Shown one piece after another: positions 41,050-44,313 of a stretch of DNA of 64,000 nucleotides. Position 1 is the stretch's first letter. Each line of letters starts with the position of its first letter. Below the pieces are notes generated by a model. The model was not told the origin of the DNA and made no database searches. It saw nothing but the letters and a program-made list of their open reading frames with translations. A program made the position numbers and the translations under genes. This stretch comes from Erysipelatoclostridium sp. An173. GTDB taxonomy: Bacteria > Bacillota_I > Bacilli_A > Erysipelotrichales > Coprobacillaceae. Where the stretch lies: positions 1 to 64,000 of the forward strand of contig NZ_NFKR01000014.1 of assembly GCF_002160495.1 (NCBI RefSeq), in the 5' to 3' direction.

Positions 41050-42309
41050 ATGCGACGCAATATCTACAGCTCTATTTTTTATTGTATCTTGGGCGTAGTT
41101 TTAATAGTTCTTTCACTATTAGCTTTAATTTACCAGGAAAATTTTTTAATGCGTGTTTTTGATCTTTTGGGTTGGATATTGATTGTTAACGGTCTTCATG
41201 AGCTTAGTAATTATTATCGTAAGCATTTTAAAGGGTCGTTAATAAGTGTCATTTTAAATATTATTGCTGGTATTTTTATCATTGGATATACTGCTATTCC
41301 AATTAGGCTTGTTTTGATTATCTTTGCTTTTTATATAACATGTAATGGAATAATCACTTTAATTTCTTATTTGAATTATAAAAAAGACCGTGTGAGTTAT
41401 CGTTTTCCAGTTTTATGTGGTGCTTTATTATTAATTATTTATGGATTGGCTCTTTTAATTGGACAATATGCTAATGTTAGAAATATGATGATTTTTATTG
41501 GTGCATATGGATTGCTGCTAGGAATCAATTATATTATTGATGGTATATTTATTGCGATTCCTCAACAAAAAAAGGATAGTTTAAAAAGAAGGATTAGAAT
41601 ACCTATTCCTTTGTTGATATCGGCTTTAATTCCAAAGGTAATGATGGATTATATAAATGAGCGTCTACAAATAGAACCCAAAGAACATTTTCTAGATCCT
41701 AAAGAAGTATATAATATTGAAATTTTTATTCATGTAAGTGCTGATGGTTTTGGAACTGTAGGACACTGTGATGTTTGCATCGATGAAAAAGTTATCTCCT
41801 ATGGAAATTACGATCATGATTCAATAAGAATGTTTGAAGCCATAGGTGATGGTGTTTTATTTGTTGCTGATCGTGATCGTTATTTGAATTTTTGTATTCA
41901 AAACTATCGACAAACAATCTTTGCATATGGTTTGAGTTTAACAGCTAAACAATTAGTTAGTGTAAAAAATGAGATAAATAAATTAATGGTTGATACTTAT
42001 CGATGGTTTCCACGTAGTTATTATAATAAAAATGATTGTAAGGATTATGCAAGCAAATTGTTTTTAGTTACAAATGCATTTTTTTATAAATTTAAAAAAG
42101 GGAAATTTAAAACTTACTTTGTTTTAGGTTCGAATTGTGTAAAATTAGCAGAGCGTGTTGTTGGAAAAGGGGGTTTAGATATTATTGATTTAAATGGAAT
42201 AATATCACCAGGAACGTATCAAAATTATCTTGAAAAAGAGTATCAACGTGTTAATGGAGTAGTTGTTTCGAAAAACGTTTATAACAGATTGACTTTTTTT
42301 CAAAAATAA
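41050..42309 (+). CDS. HdeD-like membrane domain fused to a permuted papain-like domain
   Basis: A 419-residue fusion. Residues about 8-170 hold six hydrophobic helices in the pairwise pattern of the HdeD/DUF308 family. After a basic linker the C-terminal half (about 225-419) is soluble, with HVSADGFGTVGHCDVCID, a DCKDYASKL block and LGSNCVKLAERVV. A His in an early strand and a later Asn-Cys at a helix start is the order seen in circularly permuted NlpC/P60-like and DUF4105-type proteins, so it may be a membrane-tethered peptidase, acyltransferase or lipase. I infer this from motif order; the family is not certain. Confidence 0.7.
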   Translation: MRRNIYSSIFYCILGVVLIVLSLLALIYQENFLMRVFDLLGWILIVNGLHELSNYYRKHFKGSLISVILNIIAGIFIIGYTAIPIRLVLIIFAFYITCNGIITLISYLNYKKDRVSYRFPVLCGALLLIIYGLALLIGQYANVRNMMIFIGAYGLLLGINYIIDGIFIAIPQQKKDSLKRRIRIPIPLLISALIPKVMMDYINERLQIEPKEHFLDPKEVYNIEIFIHVSADGFGTVGHCDVCIDEKVISYGNYDHDSIRMFEAIGDGVLFVADRDRYLNFCIQNYRQTIFAYGLSLTAKQLVSVKNEINKLMVDTYRWFPRSYYNKNDCKDYASKLFLVTNAFFYKFKKGKFKTYFVLGSNCVKLAERVVGKGGLDIIDLNGIISPGTYQNYLEKEYQRVNGVVVSKNVYNRLTFFQK

Positions 42310-42324
42310 TACATAATATTTGGT

Positions 42325-42356
42325 GTATTATACTCATGTCAAAATATGACAATAAT
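42325..42356 (+). promoter_or_regulatory. Promoter-like block upstream of the first small RNA
   Basis: TATTAT (42325-42330) and AATAAT (42351-42356) are 26 bases apart, start to start. The same pair with nearly the same spacing precedes the second small RNA (42475 and 42501-42507). TTATAC with AATAAT (17-base spacer) fits a -35/-10 whose start is at the first RNA stem. Confidence 0.5.
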
Positions 42357-42358
42357 AC

Positions 42359-42428
42359 TGCATAGATGACCCCTCTCCCATATTAATCATCTATGCAAAT
42401 TAGGAACATGAAAAATGTTCCTTTTTTT
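42359..42428 (+). ncRNA. Candidate small RNA 1: 11-bp stem, C-rich loop, own terminator
   Basis: TGCATAGATGA (42359-42369) and TCATCTATGCA (42387-42397) pair perfectly around a 17-base loop that opens CCCCTCTCCC. Four bases on, AGGAACAT/ATGTTCCT with a GAAAA loop and T7 (42402-42428) is a textbook terminator. It could be read as the double terminator of the upstream membrane gene, but the second, diverged copy argues for a conserved RNA of about 70 bases. The C-rich loop is complementary to GGAGG-type ribosome sites. Confidence 0.65.
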
Positions 42429-42436
42429 ATACATTT

Positions 42437-42507
42437 TTGACATTAGTTCATATTATGTTCATAATTCTTTTGTATATTATCAAATGTCGTCAAGACAAGA
42501 TAATAAT
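42437..42507 (+). promoter_or_regulatory. Promoters upstream of the second small RNA
   Basis: TTGACA (about 42437-42442) with CATAAT 17 bases later is a good promoter but would give a longer 5' end. Closer in, TTATCA (42477-42482) and GATAAT (42499-42504) occupy the place of the promoter of small RNA 1 and would start the RNA at the stem. Confidence 0.5.
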
Positions 42508-42512
42508 ATATA

Positions 42513-42585
42513 TGTATAGGTCACCCCCTTCTTCCCCAAGTAATGACCTATACAGTAAAGGAAACTCTCCCCAAGTTTCCTTTTT
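42513..42585 (+). ncRNA. Candidate small RNA 2: diverged copy of small RNA 1
   Basis: TGTATAGGTCA (42513-42523) and TGACCTATACA (42544-42554) form a perfect 11-bp stem around a 20-base loop CCCCCTTCTTCCCCAAGTAA. A terminator AAAGGAAAC/GTTTCCTTT follows (42557-42583), its loop TCTCCCCAA again C-rich. Against RNA 1 the stem differs at three pairs, each by changes on both sides (C-G to T-A, A-T to G-C, G-C to C-G), so the fold, not the sequence, is kept. Confidence 0.68.
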
Positions 42586-42612
42586 ATTTTATTAGTATAT
42601 AATAAAAAATTC

Positions 42613-42682
42613 TTGCTTAGATAATAAAAATTTGCTAGAATATAAAAGGGCACCTGCATGTCTTCCTTAGGAAGGCATTTTT
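42613..42682 (+). promoter_or_regulatory. pyrG promoter and CTP-responsive attenuator
   Basis: TTGCTT (42613-42618) and extended TG-c-TAGAAT (42633-42641), 17 bases apart, place the start at GGGC (42648-42651). A terminator follows: ATGTCTTCC/GGAAGGCAT with a TTA loop (42658-42678) and T5. This is the arrangement known from Bacillus pyrG: when CTP is low, polymerase adds extra G residues at GGG before the first C, and the G-run pairs with the pyrimidine-rich left arm (here CTTCC), preventing termination. Confidence 0.8.
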
Positions 42683-42705
42683 ATTTTGTAATAGAAGGAG
42701 AATAA

Positions 42706-44313
<1,608 letters not shown>

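Follow-up and report, generated by a model that had tools for sequence, protein, structure and literature searches.

Two tandem units upstream of pyrG represent a predicted multicopy family of C-rich small RNAs in the Coprobacillaceae

In the 64,000-nt stretch of Erysipelatoclostridium sp. An173 DNA that was analysed (hereafter the window), two tandem units, u1 and u2, most likely give rise to short RNAs with C-rich loops able to mask ribosome-binding sites. Sequence comparison strongly supports that both belong to a new, lineage-restricted and multicopy small RNA (sRNA) family of the Coprobacillaceae. It is quite probable that this is a response-regulator-driven family of anti-Shine-Dalgarno sRNAs similar to the csRNAs and to LhrC, with u1 being transcribed from a housekeeping-type promoter. 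The gene anatomy, the conservation, the covariation and the promoter box with its spacing are shown by the sequences; transcription, the regulator, the base-pairing mechanism and the targets are inferred.

Both units are located on the + strand (u1 at 42325-42430 and u2 at 42473-42590, read directly from the sequence), between an ORF encoding a 419-aa DUF308 membrane protein (41050-42309) and pyrG (encoding CTP synthase, 42709-44313). In agreement with a preliminary description of the region, each unit contains a perfect 11-bp hairpin (H2) with a C-rich loop of 17-20 nt and has a terminator of its own (Table 1), the loop of the second terminator is C-rich as well, and the H2 arms of u1 (TGCATAGATGA at 42359-42369 and TCATCTATGCA at 42387-42397) and u2 (TGTATAGGTCA at 42513-42523 and TGACCTATACA at 42544-42554) differ at three positions that are all compensated. 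Compared with shuffled sequences, the folds had z-scores of -8.3 (u1) and -6.1 (u2), with none of 200 shuffles equally good, and three terminators were found in a 2.1-kb stretch versus 0.6 expected. The terminator of u1 was read at 42402-42422 and that of u2 at 42557-42583. The TATTAT/AATAAT blocks, 26 bases apart, that had been described as promoter-like do exist, but the label was only partly right: in u1 they pair with each other as a 7-bp hairpin that is unchanged in nine of nine orthologs, and in u2 the first block (TATATTAT) does overlap the likely -10 hexamer, whereas the second sits in the transcribed linker. The likely promoter of u2 consists of the direct-repeat box followed by N9-TATATT (42447-42478). 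For u1, the genus orthologs that extend this far retain TTGAC(A/T) and, some 17 bases later, a hexamer resembling a -10. Further downstream, the pyrG leader (42640-42690 of the window, after u2) contains AAAGGGC and then a terminator (ATGTCTTCC TTA GGAAGGCAT TTTT); leader and terminator are shared by most of the genus and by Faecalibacillus, and the arrangement looks like a CTP-sensing attenuator of the Bacillus subtilis type with reiterative G addition.

Table 1. Features of u1 and u2 with their positions in the window
Feature	Position	Strand	Basis or remark
u1 likely promoter TTGACT-17-CATAAT	42289..42317	+	TTGACA-N17-TATAAT type; overlaps 3' end of upstream ORF
u1 5' hairpin H1 GTATTAT...ATAATAC	42325..42358	+	fold; 7 outer pairs identical in 9/9 sequences
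u1 hairpin H2, 11-bp stem, 17-nt loop CCCCTCTCCCATATTAA	42359..42397	+	read directly, fold, double changes (orthologs, family)
u1 intrinsic terminator	42402..42430	+	compensatory changes at two pairs (ortholog alignment)
u2 direct-repeat box TTCATATTATGTTCATA (TTCAYA-N5-TTCATA)	42447..42463	+	
u2 -10 hexamer TATATT	42473..42478	+	exactly 9 nt downstream of box; start expected at about 42484-42485
u2 5'-terminal mini-hairpin TGTC-GTCAA-GACA	42485..42497	+	motif position common to family members
u2 hairpin H2, 11-bp stem, 20-nt loop CCCCCTTCTTCCCCAAGTAA	42513..42554	+	read directly, fold, ortholog alignment
u2 intrinsic terminator, loop with CTCTCCCC	42557..42590	+	CCCC in terminator loop of every genus ortholog

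The genus concerned is Thomasclavelia, represented by nine genomes including the window's own. A DNA search of 60 relatives recovered the u1/u2 stretch in all eight other genomes of the genus with 77-83% identity (in G007 it is divided between two contigs). The alignment of these orthologs revealed paired changes in H2 of u1 (G-C to A-U in four sequences and C-G to U-A in one) and of u2 (U-A to C-G in three sequences), with loops that are almost invariant and terminators that drift and are partly compensated. Missing stems or changes in one arm only had been named beforehand as evidence against an sRNA family; H2 showed neither, except at a few of the outermost or innermost base pairs. In u2, TGTC and GACA do not vary in the alignment, so these pairs neither support nor refute the mini-hairpin.

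A covariance-model search over relatives, as had been suggested in the preliminary description, recovered members in eleven genera of the Coprobacillaceae (e.g. Faecalibacillus, Longibaculum, Massilimicrobiota and Stoquefichus), often two in tandem; the model contained the H2 pairs only and no promoter information. Among 395 genomes sampled over the class, no members were found in any other family. The covariance-model search over relatives gave one match outside the family, in G262; it closely resembles u3 of the genus (see below), its contig is short and the assembly is 79% complete, which makes contamination likely. In 28 distinct H2 hairpins, aligned after trimming to the stem, which favours structure (the ortholog alignment was not so trimmed), 92.1% of the cells were paired, compared with 45% at most in slid controls. 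Double changes occurred at nine of ten pairs, and covariation was 0.484 versus 0.202 for shuffled alignments, a level that none of 500 shuffles reached. While the arms covary, the H2 loop CCCCTCTCCC is near-invariant across the family, the C-rich loop of paralogs being of the form CCCCTCTCCC or CCCCCTTCTTCCCC, and a second UCCC-type motif follows within 45 nt of H2 in 37 of 43 members (in u2, not in u1). The window's genome itself has at least three copies, which makes the duplicated family larger than the two units originally claimed: the third, u3 (G000:C30:39454-39630), lies between genes for a HAD hydrolase and a PHP-type protein and holds UCCCC in its terminator loop, as does u2. Because members are found at unrelated loci across the eleven genera (the one in G010, for instance, is not adjacent to pyrG), there is no fixed cis gene.

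The box also drives sRNA-like units whose stems differ and whose loops are of the UCCC type (L015 1506, L223 388, L224 394 and L230 302), and since some of such units occur in genera that the model missed (g4, g15 and g18), the family is probably wider than the covariance model shows. An Rfam scan of the window (cmscan, Rfam 15) yielded no matches at the gathering threshold, and the sole match in a permissive scan of six member loci, to ar14 (E 0.86), was at chance level. No sRNA family or sRNA-controlling response regulator of the Coprobacillaceae was found in Rfam or in the open literature searched.

Members other than u1 are preceded by TTCAYA-N5-TTCAYA, nine bases and then TANNAT. As one member list had been selected by the box pattern itself, the fair test is on the members from the promoter-free model: the exact box and -10 pattern was present in 38 of these 53 (38 of the 44 non-u1 members), the 15 exceptions being nine u1 orthologs, L068 at a contig end, L020 with TTTACA in the first half, and four diverged further copies. 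The absence of the response-regulator box from u1 and its orthologs means that co-regulation of the u1/u2 pair is not supported. Further copies in g7 (G034:C31, G029:C22, G075:C316 and G014:C83) have a diverged box (TTCAAATTCCGTTAACA or similar) with the N9-TANNAT spacing kept, which perhaps reflects a changed regulator preference. If u2 starts about 6 nt past its -10, its RNA would open with UGUC...GACA. Of 43 box-driven members, 42 have TGTC at the same place (offset 5-6 from the -10), and nearly all of them have GACA another 4-9 nt downstream; this variable spacing (loop of 4-9 nt) would be more in keeping with an RNA hairpin than with a protein operator of fixed geometry.

In the window's genome TTCAYA-N5-TTCATA occurs five times, three times within genes and twice between genes, the latter two being those of u2 and u3; the u2 form GTTCAYA-N4-GTTCAYA was found once per genome in six genomes of the genus, always at u2 (reversed control 0), and GTTCAYANNNAATTCATA gave 12 matches in 14 genomes versus 0 in the control, all 12 preceding a C-rich unit with a terminator and including a subtype missed by the covariance model. 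In 43 genomes of the family, box plus -10 gave 70 matches versus 2 in the control, and some of the 70 precede protein genes, like those for an MreB-like protein (PF06723), a zinc metallopeptidase (PF04298), small lipoproteins and membrane proteins (Pfam). In 1.2 Mb of the close relative G006, whose genome is complete, the three highest box scores belonged to u3, to u2 and to a new sRNA candidate that is C-rich and ends in a terminator. This fourth candidate (G006:C1 near 184934, - strand, L311) was found via the promoter score alone and has the box, TATTAT, a short 5' hairpin, CCCCTCCC and a terminator. Upstream of groES in G012 we observed the direct repeat TTCATATTCAGTTCATA, without the family -10, and the same box in G032 (L142, L167 and L168), which may link the regulon to protein-folding stress.

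An 11-bp direct repeat adjoining the -10 is typical of response regulators of the OmpR/PhoB type. In G013, a gene encoding an OmpR-type response regulator is preceded by TTCATATCTTTTTCATA-N9-TATAAT, and the orthologs of this regulator are 75-88% identical and partnered with histidine kinases of 630-700 aa. An OmpR-type operon with the box was found in g5, g6, g7 and g19, and with variants in g11 and g17; the box is kept before the regulator operon in g5, g7 and g19 (one g5 copy reads TCCATATCTTTTTCACA), the g17 operon has variants of one or two bases (e.g. TTCATATTTTTTCCATA) and in Faecalibacillus, with an ortholog that is 59% identical, 11 of the 12 box letters are kept. These upstream sequences are good evidence for a putative autoregulation of the OmpR-type two-component operon in those sister genera. 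In the window's genome no clear ortholog of the sister-genus regulator was found (the best match is 37% identical and lacks the box), and neither the sister-genus regulator nor this best match reached the NCBIfam equivalog cut-offs. Another regulator of the window's genome (G000:C68:31259), with 11 of the 12 box letters and N9-TATGAT, lies within an ABC-transporter cassette; it is no ortholog, and its box is probably there by chance. Membership in the PhoP (phosphate) regulon is unlikely as well, the pst upstream regions reading TTTACA-N5-TTAACA and not TTCAYA, although pst box and sRNA box have a related response-regulator architecture. The pst leaders (L086-L103, upstream of pstS) contain (A/G)TGTCTTAAGA just past a -10-like sequence, the very sequence with which the sRNAs of g5, g6, g7, g17 and g19 begin. 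A link to phosphate control is possible from this shared 5' sequence, and since it is GTGTCTTAAGA that the pst leaders share with the sister-genus sRNAs, phosphate control is kept as a weak lead only.

We propose that an OmpR-type response regulator would bind the TTCAYA-N5-TTCATA repeat by the -10 and thereby switch on u2 and u3, and that u1 would be transcribed from its housekeeping-type promoter. The stable stems would hold the C-rich loops open, and these loops, together with UCCCC in the terminator loops of u2 and u3, could then pair with G-rich Shine-Dalgarno regions of mRNAs, the likely sites being GGGAG/GGAGG start regions, so that translation would be blocked or the mRNA exposed to decay. 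By computation each unit is a predicted RNA gene that is conserved, supported by its structure and equipped with a promoter and a terminator; its product would act in trans on ribosome-binding sites. A duplex scan of 844 start regions of the relative G006 (1.2 Mb, 47% of its genome) gave no clear excess of strong duplexes over shuffled loops (50 versus 13-61 for u1, 81 versus 32-135 for u2 and 44 versus 37-61 for u3). The best predicted site for both u1 and u3 was AUAUGGGAGAGGAGU (G006:685708, -23.5 kcal/mol), preceding the gene of a 241-aa protein without a Pfam match; the runner-up for u1 was a LytTR regulator, and the start of a GH25 lysozyme gene pairs too.

This lack of a statistical excess, together with a loop that is near-invariant over many genera, would also fit a role of the C-rich loops in binding a protein (as a sponge or with an RNA-binding regulator) and not mRNA. 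We consider this unlikely, for the loop varies in length and sequence among paralogs, including the single-stranded CCCCTCCC of the fourth copy in G006, as expected if it pairs to variable G-rich sites, and pairing is how the UCCC-bearing sRNAs known from Gram-positive bacteria act (PMC4132741). Less probable still is a stack of transcription terminators that insulates pyrG from upstream transcription, without a trans-acting RNA. The region does lie between two same-strand genes and each unit does end in a good intrinsic terminator, but H2 has no U-run of its own, no part is better conserved than its large loop, u1 and u2 are each preceded by a conserved promoter, and paralogs with the same box and loop are found beside other genes (u3, G010). 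The kept synteny and promoters, the covarying stems, the near-invariant loop and the paralogs at unrelated loci bear out the preliminary choice of a duplicated sRNA family over such a stack. That u1 and u2 are a cis-acting leader or attenuator of pyrG is very improbable: members precede pyrG in the genus and in Faecalibacillus, as does one copy in G020, but others (G010, u3) are found elsewhere, and pyrG has a GGGC leader and terminator of its own after u2 (42646-42685). Least probable of all are short peptides: a 52-aa TTG frame spans u2, but the loop lengths of orthologs shift by 1-3 nt, including non-multiples of three, and the stem changes are compensatory, which is not a coding pattern.

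Among the sRNAs to which the trans-acting family can be compared, FsrA and RsaE/RoxS have C-rich unpaired motifs aimed at Shine-Dalgarno sites, with a hairpin architecture and a promoter that are unlike those of the u1/u2 family. No match to LhrC, FsrA, RsaE/RoxS or other Rfam sRNA models was found in the window or in the six member loci. The role of UCCC in pairing of the FsrA and RsaE/RoxS type is cited in the description of LhrC (PMC4132741), which has UCCC motifs in a loop, in a single strand and in the terminator loop, and which is under control of a two-component system. Like the u1/u2 family, LhrC1-5 of Listeria monocytogenes (LisR) are multicopy with redundant UCCC motifs, also in the terminator loop (PMC4132741), whereas one paralog here (u1) has a housekeeping-type promoter; no LisR-box consensus was known to the authors of that paper, and thus none is at hand for comparison. 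The csRNAs of streptococci (CiaR), in common with the u1/u2 family, occur in several copies that are sometimes in tandem, are preceded by a direct-repeat box with a 5-bp spacer just upstream of the -10, are short and terminator-ended, and have sequence complementary to start regions (PMC3091779, PMC8186281). Their box, TTTAAG-N5-TTTAAG, which the -10 follows at a distance of ten bases (PMC3091779), has only the spacer and the near-identical -10 distance in common with the family box TTCAYA. Moreover, their C-rich motif is mainly located between two stem-loops and not in a large H2 loop, and their hosts belong to another bacterial order. By these sequence features, the u1/u2 family is of the csRNA/LhrC kind in its predicted design, and by the features tested it is a member of neither, with no detected sequence relation.

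A further reading, which we put forward tentatively and hold to be somewhat doubtful, is that in Thomasclavelia the regulon of one response regulator consists almost exclusively of C-rich sRNAs (u2, u3 and the fourth copy of the relative), that in sister genera this box additionally controls genes for the envelope and for proteostasis as well as the regulator operon, and that u1 arose by duplication and came under a constitutive promoter. If true, a basal and an inducible anti-ribosome-site sRNA would exist side by side. The family would add one more instance, seemingly of independent origin, of the csRNA/LhrC design, in which the promoter motif alone finds sRNA genes and, together with the candidate two-component system, makes the circuit directly testable.
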